From the IMG/VR virus record IMGVR_UViG_3300018080_000448, positions 1-30,299 of that record: a stretch of 30,299 nt of DNA; one strand, 5' to 3'. A program made the position numbers and the translations under genes. The notes below the pieces were generated by a model, which made no database searches, had not been told where the DNA came from, and was given only the letters and a program-made list of their open reading frames with translations. How positions within the stretch are numbered: the stretch's first letter is position 1; each line of letters starts with the position of its first letter. Positions 13,628 to 28,551 of this stretch are shown piece by piece. The DNA comes from a virus.

Positions 13628-14434
13628 TTAGATTCCCGACCCGACCAGCGGTGGCATGAAGTCACCCTTGTCGTTGATGAAATCCTCGGTGATCTTCTCT
13701 TTTTCTTCTTGCGCCGTGCTGACCAGATCGGAGCCGTTGAGGTTTTGCCCCTCGTTCTGCCCCGGAATCTGCCCACCGAACTTCGCACGCTTCTCGCCAA
13801 TCAGCTCCTTCCCCAACGCAGCGGCGTAGAGCAGGAACCAATGCTGATCGGCCAGCGGAATCTGTTCGATATGATGCAGGTCTTGGTACTTCAAAACCAC
13901 CTGTGGAATGTTCGTCGATTCAGGAACCGGATAAATCCACAGCGTCCCGATCCCCGGACTAGGGAAATCAGGATCGAATCGCCAATCGAACTCCGCGCTG
14001 ACGATCCGCTTCGCCGTTTCGAGGTAAGACAGGTCCAGATGCAAGTCTCCGATCTCGGTCATGTACCGAATATCGAAGGAGATCAATTCGTCGGGGCTGA
14101 CCCCCAACCCCAAACCCAACTGCGTGCGCGTTGGGGGAACGAGAACATTCACCGCGCCGAAGCCCCACTGCTGATCTCCGACGCTGTTGTCCAGCTCGTA
14201 CTGCTGAACGCCGCCTGAAACCGGAACCACGGTATAGCCGTACTTCGGCCAGTACCGAGAGTACCAGAGCAACGCCTCGGCAATGATCCCGTCGCGCTTC
14301 AGGTCCGAGTCCGTTCCGCCCTTCCCGTAGAAGTCGTCGTCGGCCAACTCGACTGTGAGCGAGCTGTCGCCCATCTTCCGCTTCACGAGGTTCGGAATAT
14401 CGGCAACGGCTAGGGTTCGGCTGATCGTGGTCAT
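13628..14434 (-). CDS. gp13-like neck (head closure) protein
   Basis: This 268-aa protein begins in an ATGA overlap with the zinc-ribbon gene. The layout agrees with T4 gp13: an N-terminal helix bundle with IAEALLWYSRYWPKYGY, a strand with QQYELDNSV, a long middle strand section (FDWRFDPDFPSPGIGTLWIY), then ADQHWFLLYAAALGKELIGE and RAKFGGQIPG. The helix with YAAAxGKxxxG and the following R-x-K-F/Y are regular in these neck proteins, which close the portal after DNA packing. The start of a neck gene set after the capsid gene is normal for T4-like relatives. Confidence 0.7.
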   Translation of the reverse strand: MTTISRTLAVADIPNLVKRKMGDSSLTVELADDDFYGKGGTDSDLKRDGIIAEALLWYSRYWPKYGYTVVPVSGGVQQYELDNSVGDQQWGFGAVNVLVPPTRTQLGLGLGVSPDELISFDIRYMTEIGDLHLDLSYLETAKRIVSAEFDWRFDPDFPSPGIGTLWIYPVPESTNIPQVVLKYQDLHHIEQIPLADQHWFLLYAAALGKELIGEKRAKFGGQIPGQNEGQNLNGSDLVSTAQEEKEKITEDFINDKGDFMPPLVGSGI

Positions 14435-14652
14435 TCGTCTTCCGGCGGCTCAGTGAGATCACATCCGCACTCGGGGCACCGCTTCGGGTATGCTCCCGGA
14501 TACTTCGGAACTTTGTAGCCACAGCCGGGACACTGCCGCTTCGCCGGTAGGCGTTGCAGCATGTTAATCATCCCGTTCGTGGCCTGTTCCATCACATGAT
14601 CCGGATCGAGGCCGTTCATCACGCATTGGATCATCTGATCGGCGATCTGCAT
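14431..14652 (-). CDS. tagged zinc-ribbon protein
   Basis: This 73-aa protein lies between the capsid hairpin and the gp13-like gene, with a GGGAG ribosome binding site. Residues 1-25 (QIADQMIQCVMNGLDPDHV) carry the peptide shared by nine proteins of this window. Residues 41-62 hold CPGCG and CPECG, 14 residues apart, a typical zinc ribbon, followed by an acidic end. Zinc ribbons bind nucleic acid or protein. Its location is unusual, since it stands alone within the head module rather than in the accessory block. The function is unknown. The tag suggests it follows the same route as the ART-like proteins. Confidence 0.7.
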   Translation of the reverse strand: MQIADQMIQCVMNGLDPDHVMEQATNGMINMLQRLPAKRQCPGCGYKVPKYPGAYPKRCPECGCDLTEPPEDE

Positions 14653-18302: not shown

Positions 18303-18578
18303 TTACTTCCTGCGAAACGCCGACATGCGGCTGTTGAACCGGCCCAACGCCTTCGACAAACGACGGCCCTGAGCGGAACGCGCCCGCTTCTTCGCCGCTC
18401 GTTTGATCTTCGACTTCTTACCGCGCAGAGCTCGTTTGATCGCCATCGAACGCTTCCGGTCCTTCGGATGCTCCCGGCGACGCTTCTGCTCACGGCTCCG
18501 TCGTTTGATGACGATCTCGACAACTTCTTCGGGATCGGCACCCTCCACGACTTGCTGGATCAATTCATCGGTATTCAT
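18303..18578 (-). CDS. very basic tagged protein, internal-head-protein-like
   Basis: I chose the ATG at 18578, just after the upstream stop, because it starts exactly at the shared tag: residues 1-23 read MNTDELIQQVVEGADPEEVV. The frame is open further upstream, but that part lies inside the coding end of the 673-aa gene. The remaining residues 26-91 are almost a third Arg/Lys (KRALRGKKSKIKRAAKKRAR), as in DNA-binding or DNA-packed proteins. A small basic protein with an N-terminal peptide next to the protease gene has the general form of T4 internal proteins (IPI-III), which are targeted to the head by a peptide and then cleaved. Function by analogy only. Confidence 0.7.
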   Translation of the reverse strand: MNTDELIQQVVEGADPEEVVEIVIKRRSREQKRRREHPKDRKRSMAIKRALRGKKSKIKRAAKKRARSAQGRRLSKALGRFNSRMSAFRRK

Positions 18579-20611: not shown

Positions 20612-21343
20612 TCACCTAATCTGTTCTGCGATCTGGAAGAAGTTGCCCGCATCACGCGACAACTCCTGAGAACGCCGCTTGTCGAACCGCCACGCTTCGA
20701 GAGGTTTGATCGGCCCCTCGTTCGCCACGTTCGCGCCCTTGTCAATCAGAGCTAACTTCTGCTCGTCTGTCATTTTCCGCAGGAGCTGCTTCCCGACCGA
20801 AGCCCAATAGGCATATTCGCCACCGAGCAGCTTGTTCAACCGAGAAATGGCGACATTCCGTTTCGCCAGATCGGCAAGCCACCACAAAGACTTATCCTTG
20901 ATCGGCTTCGAGTAATCCAACCCCCACCGCTGCTGAACCATGAAGGTTCCGAGACCAAACGCATCGGAGAGCAAACGACCCACATCATCCTCGTCCGGCT
21001 GGATGTCCGCAAGTTGCGTACCCTCGATCACGAACAGGTAGCCAAACACATCCGTCTTCCCTCGAAACGACATCATCCCCGACATATCCTGTCCGATCAT
21101 GTTCGCGCCGAGGGTGTAGATCACAGCTTCCTTCAACTTCGGGGTGATATAGACCCGCCCCTCAACCGGCTTCAAGAAACCCTTCCGGTCCGTCAGGTCC
21201 GGCGGCTGGATACCATACTTGATGATCTCCTTCCCCGCCTTCCGGGTAGACGTGCCGTGGTAGTATCGTTTTCGTCTGTCGATCCCACGGGGTGCGGCGA
21301 ACTCGCGCAACTCCTGCTCGATCAACCTATCGACGCGACTCAT
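20612..21343 (-). CDS. ADP-ribosyltransferase-like protein (H-Y type), untagged
   Basis: The ATG at 21343 overlaps the 2H gene stop (ATGA), giving 243 aa. The start of an ART fold is seen: RYYHGTSTRKAGKEIIKYGI with H29 in an HGTS motif, EGRVYITPKLKEAVIYTLGA with Y65 on the second strand, then FGYLFVIEGTQLADIQPDED with acidic residues at 117-120. The order H, Y, acidic follows PARP-, Tpt1- and DarT-like enzymes, which use NAD to modify protein or nucleic acid. A helical second half (about 125-243) is unassigned. Unlike the cluster at 25236-29594 it has no N-terminal tag, though DRLIEQELREFA at the start is faintly similar. Target unknown. Confidence 0.6.
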   Translation of the reverse strand: MSRVDRLIEQELREFAAPRGIDRRKRYYHGTSTRKAGKEIIKYGIQPPDLTDRKGFLKPVEGRVYITPKLKEAVIYTLGANMIGQDMSGMMSFRGKTDVFGYLFVIEGTQLADIQPDEDDVGRLLSDAFGLGTFMVQQRWGLDYSKPIKDKSLWWLADLAKRNVAISRLNKLLGGEYAYWASVGKQLLRKMTDEQKLALIDKGANVANEGPIKPLEAWRFDKRRSQELSRDAGNFFQIAEQIR

Positions 21344-22314
21344 TTCTTCTGGTACTTCTTCGGCAGGAGGTGGTCGTAATTTCCCAAATCCATATCGTCG
21401 CCGTAGTATTCCCACAGCGACTTGGCGACGAGCTCGCGGGTCTTCTTGTTAAACCCGCCCATGTTCGGCCCCACTTCGGGGCGCGAAGACCCCGGCTCGT
21501 AACCGAACTCCTTGGCGTACTTCTTCGCTCCGGCATCGGCCAGATTGAGCCACGCCTTCAGAGCCTTCGCTTCGTCGAAGGTGCCACGCGCCCGCTTCGT
21601 CAACAGGTTCTTGATGATCGGGATCGTCATCTGACGGTAGAGGTCGCCATCGTTGATGATGAACTGGTACAGGTCCATCCCGAGCACCTTGTCCGCCGGT
21701 CCACTCCTCGCCCATGCGAACTCCACGACGGCTTCCGGGGTTTCCCCCCGCACCACGCGCTCGATCAATTCGTTGGCAATCGTCATTCGTTCGCTCCTTC
21801 GGCCATTGGTCGGGATCATCACCTTCGAGCTGTCCTTGCCCGAGAAGGTTATTTCGTCCACCTCGATCTCCAGCCCCGCGAGGGACTTGTCGCCTTTGTA
21901 CTTCGCCCCTTCGCCGGGGAGCACGTAGGCCACCGTCGCGTGCGGCTTGTAGACAGGGTGGGTATCGGTAACTTCGGTGCCTGCGGCGATCATCTTGTTC
22001 AACTTCTGAAGATCGTCGCTCTCAACGCTCACGAACACCACGTCGTAGTCGTCGGACTTGAATAGCTGAACCGGACCGAATTTCACCCGGATCGGTCCGA
22101 AACCGGAAACGATTCTCTCCACCTCCCGATAGTCGTCGGTGTGCAAACCGAACTTCACCGTGACATGGGCATCCGCTTCACGCCCAAAGCCCCCCTCTTC
22201 CGTGTCGTACAGCTCGCTATCGGGTATTTCTCGCGATAATTGTTTGAGCCGCGAAGCCACTTGAAGAGGGAGGTCTATTTGGGTAGAAGAAAACTCTCGA
22301 ACCTTGTCACTCAT
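21340..22314 (-). CDS. 2H phosphoesterase fused to tag and NDxxLY module
   Basis: Residues 1-170 of this 324-aa protein form a 2H phosphoesterase: H50-V-T52 in ADAHVTVKFGL and H125-A-T127 in YKPHATVAYV are the two catalytic HxT motifs. Known members hydrolyse cyclic or 2'-5' phosphodiester bonds in RNA or signal nucleotides; phage anti-CBASS protein Acb1 is one. Residues 177-200 contain the shared tag (ANELIERVVRGETPEAVVEF). The rest is helical: GMDLYQFIINDGDLYRQM, then PIIKNLLTKRARGTFDEAKA and a LLPKKYQKK end. A strong ribosome binding site precedes M177, so a 148-aa C-terminal product may also be made. The stop overlaps the next gene, an ART-like protein. Substrate unknown. Confidence 0.75.
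   Translation of the reverse strand: MSDKVREFSSTQIDLPLQVASRLKQLSREIPDSELYDTEEGGFGREADAHVTVKFGLHTDDYREVERIVSGFGPIRVKFGPVQLFKSDDYDVVFVSVESDDLQKLNKMIAAGTEVTDTHPVYKPHATVAYVLPGEGAKYKGDKSLAGLEIEVDEITFSGKDSSKVMIPTNGRRSERMTIANELIERVVRGETPEAVVEFAWARSGPADKVLGMDLYQFIINDGDLYRQMTIPIIKNLLTKRARGTFDEAKALKAWLNLADAGAKKYAKEFGYEPGSSRPEVGPNMGGFNKKTRELVAKSLWEYYGDDMDLGNYDHLLPKKYQKK
21784..21799 (-). promoter_or_regulatory. internal ribosome binding site and in-frame start in the 2H gene
   Basis: Coding-strand AAGGAG (21799-21794) lies seven bases before an in-frame ATG (21786-21784), codon 177 of the 2H protein. This ATG begins MTIANELIERVVRG, so the internal product would start with the shared tag like the other tagged proteins. 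The spacing and sequence are as good as those of the sheath and tube genes. Confidence 0.5.
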
Positions 22315-22868: not shown

Positions 22869-23900
22869 TCACTGTCCCGGATCGCACGCGCAATGATCGT
22901 TGCACGCCGATCCGCAGCCGTCCCCATACCCCCACGTATTCGGGGGATCGTAGGGCGTCGGGTCCAGATCGTACTCGCAGAGAAGCAGGTACGTGTTGTT
23001 GCAGACGCAGTAGTCGTTGAACAACCCATCGTTGTTCGTATCGACATTGCATCGGGTGTAACCCTCGATAATTGGCGGTTCGACCACCTCGGACACGTCG
23101 TAATTGCGCGGCTCCATGTCGAGTCCGACGCACAGGCACTCCCCATCGACCAGACCCACATACTCGTTCGTCATGCAGTTATTCGCATCGAAGTCCGGGC
23201 AGGCCAGACATACCGCCTGCGTCGTATTCGGATACTTCTCGCAGCAACTATCCACGTTCGGGGTCTTGGACAGATAGTGGCTCGCCGCCTCGTACAGAAA
23301 CTCGTCCGTAATGTAGGCGCAGTCCATCTCGTACTTGTCGGTGCATTGGATGTCGTTTCGCGCCACGGTCCACTGGAGCGTCTTCGTCTTCTCCAGCGTC
23401 ACCGTGATCTGGAGCTCGTCGAAGCAGGGATGCACCCCATGCAGCACCAGCCGCTCGGAGCTGGCCGACAGGTCCGGACCGGTGAAGTAGTACAGCCCAT
23501 CCCGGTTCGCCGCTTCCTGAACGCTCACCTCCTCGATGCAATTCGGGCAGAAGGCGTCGATCTCCCAGCCCCCGACGTGGAAGGACTCACCGCCACGGGG
23601 ACGCGGGTTATTGAAGCTGATCGAGTATTCGTACAAGGACTGTACGATCTCCACGCACTCGCCCGCCTCGTTATCGAACACCTCGCCGTCCGGGCAGTCC
23701 GAAACGCAGGCATCCTCGCCCACATCCCACTTCAGCCCGTCCCCGCACGCGGGAACGCAATCGTCGCCGACGAGCTCCATTCCCGCTCCGCAGAGAGGAA
23801 TGTCGTCGTCGTTCGCGGCGGTATCGTCGTCGTTACCCGATACACACCCGACCAGTGCGAACGCGAGGATCGCTACCAGCCATAGCCATTTCGTTTTCAT
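22869..23900 (-). CDS. Cys-rich lipoprotein
   Basis: The N terminus of this 343-aa protein (KTKWLWLVAILAFALVGC) is a type II signal peptide with a FALVGC-type lipobox and lipidation at C19. A short Asp/Asn linker follows (SGNDDDTAANDDD), then EGF/TIL-like Cys-rich sequence (CGAGMELVGDDCVPACGDG, CPDGEVFDNEAGECVE), a beta-rich middle (SISFNNPRPRGGESFHVGGW) and a second Cys-rich part (CCEKYPNTTQAVCLACPDFD, CNDHCACDPGQ). The many Cys residues imply disulfides and an outer-surface or periplasmic location. The ATG overlaps the stop of the 70-aa gene (ATGA), so it is not a stray host fragment. Phage lipoproteins often block superinfection, but no such family is recognised here. Confidence 0.75.
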   Translation of the reverse strand: MKTKWLWLVAILAFALVGCVSGNDDDTAANDDDIPLCGAGMELVGDDCVPACGDGLKWDVGEDACVSDCPDGEVFDNEAGECVEIVQSLYEYSISFNNPRPRGGESFHVGGWEIDAFCPNCIEEVSVQEAANRDGLYYFTGPDLSASSERLVLHGVHPCFDELQITVTLEKTKTLQWTVARNDIQCTDKYEMDCAYITDEFLYEAASHYLSKTPNVDSCCEKYPNTTQAVCLACPDFDANNCMTNEYVGLVDGECLCVGLDMEPRNYDVSEVVEPPIIEGYTRCNVDTNNDGLFNDYCVCNNTYLLLCEYDLDPTPYDPPNTWGYGDGCGSACNDHCACDPGQ

Positions 23901-24109
23901 TGTCGTTTCTCCCTTCGTACTCTGACCATTGACGTTACGTGGAACGCTCGCTCGTCGATGATCCCGCTCAGGTTTTCCTGCGAGAACACCGTCACGACCA
24001 ACTCCTTTTCGTCGATCTTCTTGACATCCCCGTACTGCGTTCCACGGATGAACGCGCTACCTTTTAGCAGGTTGTGACTGACCGTCACTTCCCAGAAGAA
24101 GTCCTCCAT
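23897..24109 (-). CDS. 70-aa protein of unknown function
   Basis: It starts inside the end of the ART-like gene (25-base overlap) behind a GGAAG-type ribosome binding site, and its stop overlaps the lipoprotein start. The sequence looks like a small beta domain: FFWEVTVSHNLLKGSAFIRG, KKIDEKELVVTVFS, then AFHVTSMVRVRREKRQ with a basic end. No family is recognised. Confidence 0.55.
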   Translation of the reverse strand: MEDFFWEVTVSHNLLKGSAFIRGTQYGDVKKIDEKELVVTVFSQENLSGIIDERAFHVTSMVRVRREKRQ

Positions 24110-24702
24110 GACTTCCCTTCCATCTGCTTCGAGGTGATTGTCGTTTCCACCACCTCACTCGGATCGCTGCCGTTGACCACGAGGTGAATCATCCCCTCGG
24201 TAACCTCGCGCATACTCTTCGCGCTCCGCAGCTTCCACACATCCTCCCGATCTTCGGGATGGTCCTGAAACCACTGCCAATATCTATCCTGATACCGGCT
24301 CGGCTTCCGCATCTGATGCAGCCGCTTCCCGTGCGGGGTCACGTAGTAGGGATCGACATGCAGGATGTCCTTCGGCTCGATCTCCCGACCGACAATCGCC
24401 TGATTCCCCGCAACCAACTCCACAAGGGGATCGTCGGGGTCCACCTGAAACACCACGAGGGCACCCGAGTCGGAGTACCCTTCCGGTTCCCGCGCCGCCC
24501 ACATCGCGCCTCGGGGTGGTGACTTGCTCTTCGATGGATCGAAACCGCGCTTCGCAATCGAGAGGGCTTCGGCGTTCCCCGTCCGGTGGTAGAGCAGGAT
24601 ATTCCCGCCGCGTGCCTTGACATGCTTCGGAAAGCCGCCACGATCCACGTCCTTCCACTCCCGCAGGCTCATCTCCCACGGATGTTTCGGGATCGACTTC
24701 AT
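24085..24702 (-). CDS. ART-like protein with C-terminal copy of the shared tag
   Basis: This 205-aa protein starts in a TAATG junction. Residues 35-120 look like an ART core: NILLYHRTGNAEALSIAKRG has H39 in YHRT in place of HGT, GAMWAAREPEGYSDSGALVV has W68 where the others have Tyr, and DPLVELVAGNQAIVGREIEP then DILHVDPYYV resembles the later strands. Changes at both key positions make catalytic activity uncertain. Uniquely in the set the tag is near the C terminus, residues about 164-187 (REVTEGMIHLVVNGSDPSEV). An in-frame ATG stands just before it but has only a weak ribosome binding site. It may be a degenerate or differently directed member of the ART group. Confidence 0.55.
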   Translation of the reverse strand: MKSIPKHPWEMSLREWKDVDRGGFPKHVKARGGNILLYHRTGNAEALSIAKRGFDPSKSKSPPRGAMWAAREPEGYSDSGALVVFQVDPDDPLVELVAGNQAIVGREIEPKDILHVDPYYVTPHGKRLHQMRKPSRYQDRYWQWFQDHPEDREDVWKLRSAKSMREVTEGMIHLVVNGSDPSEVVETTITSKQMEGKSWRTSSGK

Positions 24703-25235: not shown

Positions 25236-26291
25236 TCATTTCCGATCAGCGAGCCACGGGATACCGCGACTGTTCACCTTCTCCCGGTATTGCTGTTCAA
25301 ACTCCGGAGGGATGCGCCCGAAGATCACCCGCTCGTAGTAGTGAGTAACCTTGAAGTCACCCTTCCCGGTCTCCTCCACCGGAACGGTCTCCACCGCCGC
25401 GATGATCCGGTTCGCCCCTTTGAAGTCCACCGGCTCGGTCATGCGGATATTCACGACATTCTCGTTCCCGGCCACGGCCAACTGCCGCAGCGTGCGGGTC
25501 AACTGCTCCAGATTGGCACGGGCCACGCGCTGCGCCTCGACGCGATCCGGCTGGAACTTCGGCCCCTCGATCCACAGGCTCACCTGCTCGGGGTCGATCC
25601 CGGCCCGCTCCGCACGTTTACCCGACAATGCGCGAGCAAACCGTTCGCGAAAATCATTGGGATGCAGGAACGCGACATCGCGCTCTAGGAAATCCCAAAA
25701 CATCTCCTTCAGGTGCGCGGTCAAGACCCGCTCTAGCTCCGGGTGCATGTCCCGACGCTCGAACTTTTTCTTGAAGTAGTCCACCGACTCCTCGACGAAG
25801 CGGTCCCGCGCCTCGTTCGCGAATTTCCCGTTCCCCCACTTGTGGTCCACCCATGCTTCGATGAGCATGAGAGAATTATTCCCCTTCACGCCCCAACTCA
25901 CCGCATCAATCGTGGCAAACCTCACGTTGTCTTCATCGACGAAGGCGGATCGCGGTTGCAGCCGGGCAACGACCATCACCTCGTTCGACTTGTCCCGGCC
26001 AGCCGTCTTCCACGCCGATTGCCGCGCCGTCAACAAGTTCCGCGTGAAGTACGTACCCGGAAACGAAGCGAGGCTCGATTTACCCGAACCGGACGGAGAC
26101 AGGTCGGCCCAAATCTTGTCGGCATCCGGATCGAAGCCCTTGCGCTTGATCTTCTTCCACCGCTTCATGCTCGTACCGTGGAAGAAGATGCCGGTCTTCG
26201 CCGCCTTCTGCCGCTTCTCGACGAGATCGACGACAACCTTCTCCGGGTCAGCCCCTTCGAGGACTTGGGCTATGAGCTGCTCGGCGTTCAT
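25236..26291 (-). CDS. tagged ADP-ribosyltransferase-like effector, copy 1
   Basis: The start at 26291 was chosen because it overlaps the upstream stop (ATGA) and begins with the tag MNAEQLIAQVLEGADPEKVV; the product is 351 aa. The ART core follows: FFHGTSMKRWKKIKRKGFDP with H38, FPGTYFTRNLLTAR with Y81, VMVVARLQPRSAFVDEDNVR with D119-E120-D121. Near the end, TEPVDFKGANRIIAAVE corresponds to the closing strand seen in its relatives. The order H, Y, acidic is that of PARP-, Tpt1- and DarT-like enzymes. Between core and end is a helical region with EQVSLWIEGPKFQPDRVEAQ. It is clearly homologous to the next two ART genes and probably transfers ADP-ribose to an unknown host target. Confidence 0.7.
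   Translation of the reverse strand: MNAEQLIAQVLEGADPEKVVVDLVEKRQKAAKTGIFFHGTSMKRWKKIKRKGFDPDADKIWADLSPSGSGKSSLASFPGTYFTRNLLTARQSAWKTAGRDKSNEVMVVARLQPRSAFVDEDNVRFATIDAVSWGVKGNNSLMLIEAWVDHKWGNGKFANEARDRFVEESVDYFKKKFERRDMHPELERVLTAHLKEMFWDFLERDVAFLHPNDFRERFARALSGKRAERAGIDPEQVSLWIEGPKFQPDRVEAQRVARANLEQLTRTLRQLAVAGNENVVNIRMTEPVDFKGANRIIAAVETVPVEETGKGDFKVTHYYERVIFGRIPPEFEQQYREKVNSRGIPWLADRK
26217..26291 (-). repeat. 75-base repeat covering the tag-coding start (second copy 27236-27310)
   Basis: The first 75 bases of the two adjacent tagged ART genes (26217-26291 and 27236-27310) are identical except at 26280. The 41 bases at 28511-28551, the start of the R-S-E ART gene, match 27270-27310 exactly. 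The bodies behind them differ far more, so the tag-coding DNA is conserved or exchanged separately from the rest of the gene. Confidence 0.85.
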
Positions 26292-27310
26292 TCTGCCGAA
26301 AATGCCGTATGTTTCGTGAAGATCGAGGGAGTACCATACACCACGTTCCATACCCCCGTGTAAGCAGACCCGAGATCGCGATACGCCGCCGCAATGATCT
26401 TGTTTCGTCCCTTGAAGTCCACCGGCTCACTCAATCGTAAATTTTCACCAAACGGATTGCCTTGCCGCGAAGGGGGATCAGCAACCATGAATCGACCGAG
26501 CCGCTTGGACAATGCAGCAACCGCACGTCTCCAATAACCCGCCGTCTTCTCGGCGGTATGATGCTTACCAAACTTACCGCGATACTGATTATGATTTTTA
26601 TTCAGCATCCCCATCCTCCGATAAACTTCGGCATCGGCAAGAGCAATGCCCTCCTGCTGATAGGCTTCCAGAAAACGGGGGTCGAACTCACCGTATCTCA
26701 AACCGGGATGGGCCTGTGCGAGGTAAGCGGGCATCGCATCCTTGAAATTCTTACGACCTTTCCGATACCCCTGCAACAGCTTCCGTGCCTTATCTCCCGT
26801 CTGGTCGTCGGAAAGAAGCTCGTCCTTTTCGGTGTACATGTAAAACCGATAGAGATTGCGAGGTTCAGTCAGGTTGAATCCAGCCGCCGACATCGCACCA
26901 CGAATACTCATAATCAAACCCGAAACAAACTCATCTTCGTCAAATCCGGCAGATCGGGGCTGAATCTGTGCAACGATAATCAGGGGTTTAGAATTATCCT
27001 TCGCCGCCACATCCTCCGCCGCTTCCCACGCTCCATACCGAGACGATCCCGTGCCTAGCACACTCCGGCTGAAGTACACACCGCCAACTGATTGTTGGGA
27101 CGGCTTATTAAACAATCCCAAACCAGTTCCCCAATTCTTCTCGACACCACCGGGCTTCAAACCCTCACGCTTGATCTTCTTCCACCGCTTCAGGCTCGTA
27201 CCGTGGAAAGCGATGATCGTGGGCGCACGCTTCCGCTCGACGAGATCGACGACAACCTTCTCCGGGTCAGCCCCTTCGAGGACTTGGGCTATGAGCTGAT
27301 CGGCGTTCAT
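26288..27310 (-). CDS. tagged ADP-ribosyltransferase-like effector, copy 2
   Basis: The start at 27310 overlaps the upstream stop (ATGA) and gives MNADQLIAQVLEGADPEKVV as tag in a 340-aa protein. Core motifs are IIAFHGTSLKRWKKIKREGL with H36, QSVGGVYFSRSVLGTG with Y79, and IIVAQIQPRSAGFDEDEFVS with the acidic run at 124-127. A helical middle includes DDQTGDKARKLLQGYRKGRK, and the end has LSEPVDFKGRNKIIAAAY, matching copy 1. The last residues add GVWNVVYGTPSIFTK. DNA in the second half is richer in A/T than its neighbours, which may mean separate origin. Enzyme class inferred from motifs; target unknown. Confidence 0.7.
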   Translation of the reverse strand: MNADQLIAQVLEGADPEKVVVDLVERKRAPTIIAFHGTSLKRWKKIKREGLKPGGVEKNWGTGLGLFNKPSQQSVGGVYFSRSVLGTGSSRYGAWEAAEDVAAKDNSKPLIIVAQIQPRSAGFDEDEFVSGLIMSIRGAMSAAGFNLTEPRNLYRFYMYTEKDELLSDDQTGDKARKLLQGYRKGRKNFKDAMPAYLAQAHPGLRYGEFDPRFLEAYQQEGIALADAEVYRRMGMLNKNHNQYRGKFGKHHTAEKTAGYWRRAVAALSKRLGRFMVADPPSRQGNPFGENLRLSEPVDFKGRNKIIAAAYRDLGSAYTGVWNVVYGTPSIFTKHTAFSAE

Positions 27311-28551
27311 GCTTTCACGATCCCCTTCCGGGGAACATATTCGTAACCCTGCTCCTTCAGCCACGAGAGCAGCGTCCCGCCCTGCAATTTGAGCTGGCTG
27401 ATCTTGGCATTCACCTTCCCATCGACAATCACCTCGTTCTGCCACAGGAACGGAAATTTTTCCTGATCCTCACGATGAAGCCGCGCCATGTCGATAATGA
27501 CCTTCCGCCCCGGAACCCGCGCCTTCAACAGAACTTCAATATCCGCAGTGCGCGAAAACTCGGCGGCCATCTGGGGGGTATAAGACCACGAGGAATGATC
27601 TTTACCTTGAGTGTATAGCGCGGCCCTGTCGTAGACCACCTTCGCCCCAACCCGAATCTGATCGAGACGTTTCACCCCGAACAAAGCAAGAAAAAACTTA
27701 TCGCGATAGTCCGACGGATAGCGAATAACCTTGTTGAACCCGCGATACAGCGTCAGCGTCCCCTTCGAGGGGTAGTGCCTCTGAAGATACTTAATCGTCT
27801 TGGGCTTGAGCTCCTTCTCTGCCGCAAAAGTGTAATTCATCAGGTCGTACAACACATCCTCGGGCAGGAGCTCATCGGAGGGGTCGGGAAGATCGTCCCG
27901 CTCTCCGCGCTTCACGGTCCCGTCGATCAAATCGAGGGAAGAGGAAATTGTATCCGCCACGGCGAATACCGTATCGTCGAACTGGTAGGCACCCCACACC
28001 CTGCTCAAACCCAACCTGTCGAGGTAGTAAGCAACGTCGTCGGCTTCGTGATATTCAGCGGCCTTCAAGCACTGAACCAGCACCTCGACAAACTCATCGT
28101 CGGTCAGGTCATAAACCGTCCGGCCATCTTCAAACATCCCGCCGTTGTCGTAATACGCTCGGAGTACATTCGAGGAGGGACCGTTCAAGTTACCTCCATG
28201 ACCCCCGAATCCCTTCACCCCGGAGCTGCTGGCAACCTCGCCTCGGGTTATCAATCCCTTTTTCACCGCCGTTCGGACGTGCCCGTGATTCGGGATAAAC
28301 ACGTTGATGGGCTTTACGGTCTTGTAGATATACCGATCTGTCTGGTAAACCAGCGACCCCCTCCCGATCTTCCGTTTCCACTCCCGATAAACTTCCTCGG
28401 GAGAGAGCGTCACCACACCTACCCTTTTTTGAATCGGGTCGCGGCTGAACAGGTAAAGATTCCCGACGTTCCGCTCGGTGAGAATCGCCTCGACTATTTG
28501 GTCGGGATCGGCCCCTTCGAGGACTTGGGCTATGAGCTGATCGGCGTTCAT
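27307..28551 (-). CDS. tagged R-S-E ADP-ribosyltransferase (toxin-type)
   Basis: The start at 28551 matches the tag start of its neighbours and overlaps the upstream stop (ATGA); a GTG six bases earlier is possible. It is 414 aa. Tag: MNADQLIAQVLEGADPDQIV. Residues 30-260 are unassigned (with GFGGHGGNLNGPSSNVLRAY and helices such as EVLVQCLKAAEYHEADDVAY). The C-terminal part is an R-S-E ART: LTLYRGFNKV with R270, SSWSYTPQMAAEFS at about 320-333 as the STS-type strand, and FLWQNEVIVDG with Q371-N372-E373 in place of ExE. A QxE pair is known from C3-like exoenzymes. This is a different ART class from its neighbours, joined only by the tag. Confidence 0.75.
   Translation of the reverse strand: MNADQLIAQVLEGADPDQIVEAILTERNVGNLYLFSRDPIQKRVGVVTLSPEEVYREWKRKIGRGSLVYQTDRYIYKTVKPINVFIPNHGHVRTAVKKGLITRGEVASSSGVKGFGGHGGNLNGPSSNVLRAYYDNGGMFEDGRTVYDLTDDEFVEVLVQCLKAAEYHEADDVAYYLDRLGLSRVWGAYQFDDTVFAVADTISSSLDLIDGTVKRGERDDLPDPSDELLPEDVLYDLMNYTFAAEKELKPKTIKYLQRHYPSKGTLTLYRGFNKVIRYPSDYRDKFFLALFGVKRLDQIRVGAKVVYDRAALYTQGKDHSSWSYTPQMAAEFSRTADIEVLLKARVPGRKVIIDMARLHREDQEKFPFLWQNEVIVDGKVNAKISQLKLQGGTLLSWLKEQGYEYVPRKGIVKA

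Follow-up and report, generated by a model that had tools for sequence, protein, structure and literature searches.

In phage lambda, C and Nu3 are nested genes: a second start lies in frame within a head gene. Phage T4 provides a further head-gene precedent: the essential, short product gp21s is made from the internal Met45 of gene 21 (PMC9026906). The gp21 protease cleaves after the motif L/I-X-E (PMC9026906). The T4 capsid targeting sequence (CTS), found on the internal proteins and on Alt, is ~10 aa long, sits at the N terminus and is removed (PMC9026906, PMC7411985). Finally, polyvalent phage proteins are long, multidomain proteins in which 2H is joined to other domains, and they are expected to be packaged (Iyer et al. 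2017, PMC5512222).

The gene of interest lies within a 30,299-nucleotide stretch of viral DNA (IMG/VR record IMGVR_UViG_3300018080_000448, positions 1–30,299; hereafter, the window), and encodes a fusion of a 2H phosphoesterase, a short tag, and an NDxxLY domain. It shares features with each of the above systems. As in gp21/gp21s and C/Nu3, an in-frame second start with a ribosome-binding site, inside a head gene, could give a shorter product; the differences are that the window parts are unrelated domains, and that the short form is predicted from sequence. As with the T4 CTS, a short peptide is common to unrelated proteins in a T4-type head module with ARTs and a gp21-type protease (phrog_207 in the window phage). 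However, the window tag is ~25 aa long, is predicted to form a hairpin, and occurs in N-terminal, internal and C-terminal positions. As in polyvalent proteins, unrelated domains (2H and NDxxLY) are joined in one chain, here encoded near head genes, but the window protein is short and three-part, its tag is specific to the family, and a ribosome-binding site lies at the join.

Architecture of the fusion gene

The gene and its parts are as follows.

21340..22314, minus strand: full fusion gene (2H phosphoesterase–tag–NDxxLY), a 324-aa open ORF
21808..22314, minus strand: 2H phosphoesterase domain, residues ~1–169 (PF13563, E 7.9e-11; motifs; Foldseek)
21787..21807, minus strand: junction linker NGRRSER (alignment; stand-alone 2H relatives stop here)
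21794..21799, minus strand: internal Shine-Dalgarno sequence AAGGAG, 7 nt upstream of an ATG
21784..21786, minus strand: internal start codon ATG, codon 177 of 324
21709..21786, minus strand: tag MTIANELIERVVRGETPEAVVEFAWA, predicted helical hairpin (13-tag alignment, tag HMM match, AF2)
21343..21708, minus strand: NDxxLY domain, four predicted helices

The first part of the chain belongs to the 2H superfamily: it has two H-x-T motifs, a 2_5_RNA_ligase2 (PF13563) match above the curated cut-off (residues 44–137; 42.7 bits, cut-off 27), and the 2H fold. The motifs are HVT (residues 50–52) and HAT (125–127), of which H50/T52 and H125/T127 are invariant in 28 relatives. The 2H part is modelled with confidence, and its Foldseek matches to 2H enzymes include CPDase (cyclic phosphodiesterases), LigT, Usb1 and phage Acb1. 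The Acb1 proteins, which are anti-CBASS phosphoesterases, are also the solved structures nearest in sequence to the window 2H. The window protein differs from them in its fusion to tag-NDxxLY and in its score against the Acb1 Pfam family, PF23474 (20.8 bits, under the cut-off of 27); a 2H relative from another phage, G006, passes that cut-off with 30.4 bits. When aligned, stand-alone 2H relatives terminate 0–6 residues past the last strand, where AAGGAG begins in the window gene (the C-terminal end of one, L025, is TPIRLKAEQGV). Many other 2H relatives sit within long multidomain proteins, mostly of 600–2200 aa.

The NDxxLY domain matches no Pfam or PHROG family and no PDB fold. Among its relatives it occurs either as a stand-alone gene or as a module within larger proteins. 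Marine T4-like phages encode small, stand-alone NDxxLY proteins with their own N-terminal leader of the MKxFxxFIxEA type (e.g., MKTFKTYLVEA, MKNFKTFIEA), which makes a leader-first NDxxLY protein sensible. At two further loci (L040:1897–4182 and L072:1750–4398), NDxxLY is joined to a Peptidase_S77 prohead protease, a combination that points to the head. The protease and MCP genes of the window lie ~3.4 kb and 5 kb, respectively, from the fusion gene itself.

An identical 324-aa fusion is encoded by a second assembly, contig IMGVR_UViG_3300017987_001891 (71,946 bp). Seven SNPs separate the two assemblies over 7,198 bp, and the fusion gene is free of them; an assembly error or frameshift as the source of the fusion is thus ruled out. 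Outside this phage, we found no close relative of the whole fusion in IMG/VR or in phage records, and no further case of 2H and NDxxLY in one ORF among the relatives' loci then examined.

The internal start site

The preliminary description placed a strong AAGGAG-7-ATG in frame at codon 177, exactly before the tag and with 148 codons left, and re-examination of the DNA bears this out. The sequence CCGAAGGAGCGAACGA, directly 5' of the codon-177 ATG (first base 21786), gives AAGGAG, 7 nt, ATG; the 148 codons from this ATG onward are in frame with the 2H gene, and the tag begins at the internal-start Met (MTIANELIERVVRGETPEAVVEF).

The internal start is non-random and stands above the ordinary background. 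Across 36 window genes there are 189 internal in-frame ATGs, of which that of codon 177 is the only one preceded by a Shine-Dalgarno core of at least 6 nt (counted at 4–11 nt spacing). A duplex energy of −8.0 would place it 12th if it were set among the real starts of these 36 genes, and AAGGAG-7-ATG is also the arrangement at two of those starts (7518 and 9644). Window genes contain the hexamer AAGGAG 20 times, and 18 of these read AAG GAG (Lys-Glu); at codon 177 it is instead read as CGA AGG AGC, with AGG accounting for 5.4% of Arg codons. Arithmetic from codon and hexamer counts puts the probability that the peptide R-R-S is spelled with AAGGAG at ~0.002. A comparable start near the join was seen in one of 47 other 2H fusions (proteins with at least 80 residues past the 2H domain). 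Given this rarity on both counts and the rare AGG spelling, the site is probably under selection now or was so in the past; sequence alone cannot tell which.

An AAGGAG-5-ATG also lies immediately after the 2H domain in the 2H fusion at L150:3001–3501.

Should selection lie wholly in the past, or the match be a coincidence, the full fusion would be the sole product and AAGGAG-ATG would be without a role. We consider this unlikely: just one internal ATG in 189 has such a site, its spelling uses a rare codon, and it is placed exactly at the tag. On the other hand, a strong internal Shine-Dalgarno sequence is not proof of initiation, other internal and C-terminal tags manage without a start (see below), and the predicted local mRNA accessibility at the internal start is ordinary (39th percentile of gene starts). 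Accessibility was dropped as support for the internal start, being uninformative at this value.

Copies of the tag in the window phage and in G006

In the AF2 model, the helices of the tag span its residues 3–12 and 17–26, and a single helix runs through the linker and tag of the fusion. Further copies of the tag in the window include the following.

24085..24213, minus strand: tag at the C terminus of the ART-like gene 24702..24085; the preceding Met has no canonical Shine-Dalgarno sequence
18303..18578, minus strand: small basic protein with the tag at its N terminus, encoded upstream of the prohead protease; synteny kept in G006 and L225
25236..29952, minus strand: run of N-terminally tagged genes, at least three of them ART-like (starts 26291, 27310, 28551, 29594, 29952)

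Most tag copies are N-terminal. At least two genes of the window phage carry the tag at the C terminus (24702..24085 and L024:14209–14955), with the ending VVEWVFRDN stop recorded for a C-terminal tag of this phage. Several such tags start with Met, mostly without a good Shine-Dalgarno sequence, and this fits an origin of these proteins by fusion to tag-first genes.

The tag HMM detects a clear tag in one other phage, G006 (IMGVR_UViG_3300009506_000110), whose protease is ~40–44% identical to that of the window and whose MCP fragment is 60% identical. The order w25031, w23900, w22861, NDxxLY, w20604, tag-basic protein, w18300, protease, MCP is kept in G006 (w numbers are window start positions). 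A Cys-rich, lipoprotein-like gene in this head/cargo cluster (22869–23900) is 65% identical to its syntenic G006 counterpart.

The preliminary description called for relatives in which the two halves are separate genes, and G006 is one such: it encodes a 530-aa NDxxLY protein without 2H at the syntenic place, while its 2H lies ~18 kb off, in a HAD-like–2H–tag (IADQLIEQELRLMEKK)–DUF3175 protein. The internal tag of this protein was detected with E 2.8e-5 by a model built solely from N-terminal tags of the same type, and has no ATG, GTG or TTG start codon. Another G006 gene has at its C terminus a tag (VVEAARK stop) that contains no Met. The DUF3175 domain located after the tag of the G006 2H protein is also present in a 1,285-aa protein at L024:5953–9810; domains are shuffled among cargo proteins.

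These copies contradict one proposal of the preliminary description, namely that the tag is meant for the N terminus. A T4-type CTS is confined to the N terminus; here, internal and C-terminal copies are spread across both phages, so the tag is not restricted to that end. The same copies weigh against a reading in which the tag works at the N terminus alone, translation of a distinct NDxxLY cargo, tag in front, begins at the internal start, and the long 2H product is in effect untagged and stays out of the head. That reading has in its favour the strong Shine-Dalgarno sequence and ATG exactly at the tag, the majority of tags being N-terminal, the N-terminal leaders on NDxxLY relatives, and the precedent of gp21s; yet the G006 2H protein has its internal tag without a start codon, and C-terminal tags are present in both phages. 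We regard it as quite unlikely.

Two head proteins could also arise without a second start, if the long product were packaged and a gp21-like protease then cut in the tag (L-I-E before R, residues 183–185) or nearby. A gp21-type protease is encoded by the phage, NELIE-R and, in the tag of the G006 2H protein, QLIE-Q both fit the L/I-X-E motif of T4 gp21, and LNEN or LTEA joins occur in large proteins holding other 2H or NDxxLY domains. However, the motif is short and common, the window phage's protease may not share the specificity of T4 gp21, the cut would land within the hairpin, and most class A tags are without the motif (LIA, LIQ). More generally, LIE-R is present in the fusion tag and LxE-K/R ends several ART tags, while the motif is absent from many others. 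L/I-X-E motifs were dropped as a cleavage predictor, being too short to decide, and we judge processing of this kind improbable.

The ART-like paralogues at 26291, 27310, 29594 and L024:13031, which share an FHGTS/YHGTS motif, have N-terminal tags ending LVE, LTE or LYE before K/R; these ends fit the cleavage motif.

Origin and products of the fusion

The account that we somewhat favour is that a stand-alone 2H was placed ahead of a tag-NDxxLY gene, that the hairpin tag serves in head docking, and that the full fusion is the main product with the short form perhaps made alongside. In the first step, a stand-alone 2H gene would have lost its stop codon and become joined in frame to the front of the tag-NDxxLY gene; in the window lineage, this would have taken place at the NDxxLY locus. 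The former ribosome-binding site of the tag-NDxxLY gene would thereby have become the linker codons GRRSER; a linker that is a translated ribosome-binding site is most easily accounted for if 2H was added ahead of a tag-first NDxxLY gene. Such an ancestral gene is presumed, since no close relative has a free tag-NDxxLY gene: in G006 and L225, NDxxLY follows other sequence, with no clear tag. The presence of the tag after 2H in G006 counts against this account, as the two may have been transferred as a unit and the start may be secondary.

With regard to function, the hairpin tag, which is common to many proteins encoded beside head genes, may attach cargo to the core of the prohead. The full 2H-tag-NDxxLY product, with its tag mid-chain, would be loaded into the head and injected, and is probably the main head cargo made from the gene. 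Our inference of head loading draws on the tag that these proteins have in common, on the gene neighbourhood and its ART-like members, and on the NDxxLY-protease fusion. Once injected, the 2H domain would act in an anti-CBASS-like manner, cutting cyclic or 2'-5' nucleotides, or would cut RNA ends. The odds that the short tag-NDxxLY form is still made from the retained start seem about even. A broader proposal is that a position-independent hairpin loads heads and one message yields both 2H-tag-NDxxLY and tag-NDxxLY, with the choice of start setting the ratio of enzyme-bearing to enzyme-free protein; in this full form, we hold it to be somewhat unlikely.

If the tag does work in cargo loading wherever it sits in a chain, it would be (i) more flexible than the T4 CTS, (ii) useful for packaging foreign proteins, and (iii) a marker by which injected effectors (ARTs, 2H nucleases) could be found in uncultured phages. 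On the favoured account of its origin, the junction is a clear snapshot of the birth of a fusion, with a stop codon lost and the ribosome-binding site of the next gene turned into a linker.

Several further observations concern the tag. At 14431–14652, it precedes a small zinc-ribbon protein adjoining the major capsid gene. A second, shorter tag class, M/V-[ST]RxADxLIExEL, is present in both phages (21343; L024:3854 and 5111; L214:7057, 7296, 7613 and 7901) and is apparently related to the first. A strain variant of the tag-basic protein at L031:418 reads EELIQQVVGGADPDEVV, as compared with DELIQQVVEGADPEEVV in the window. Finally, contig 3300017987_001891 is without ~2.2 kb (26291–28502) between the tag repeats at 26291 and 28551, with flanks that are 99.8–99.9% identical; this natural deletion removed two tagged genes and apparently arose through recombination at the tag.
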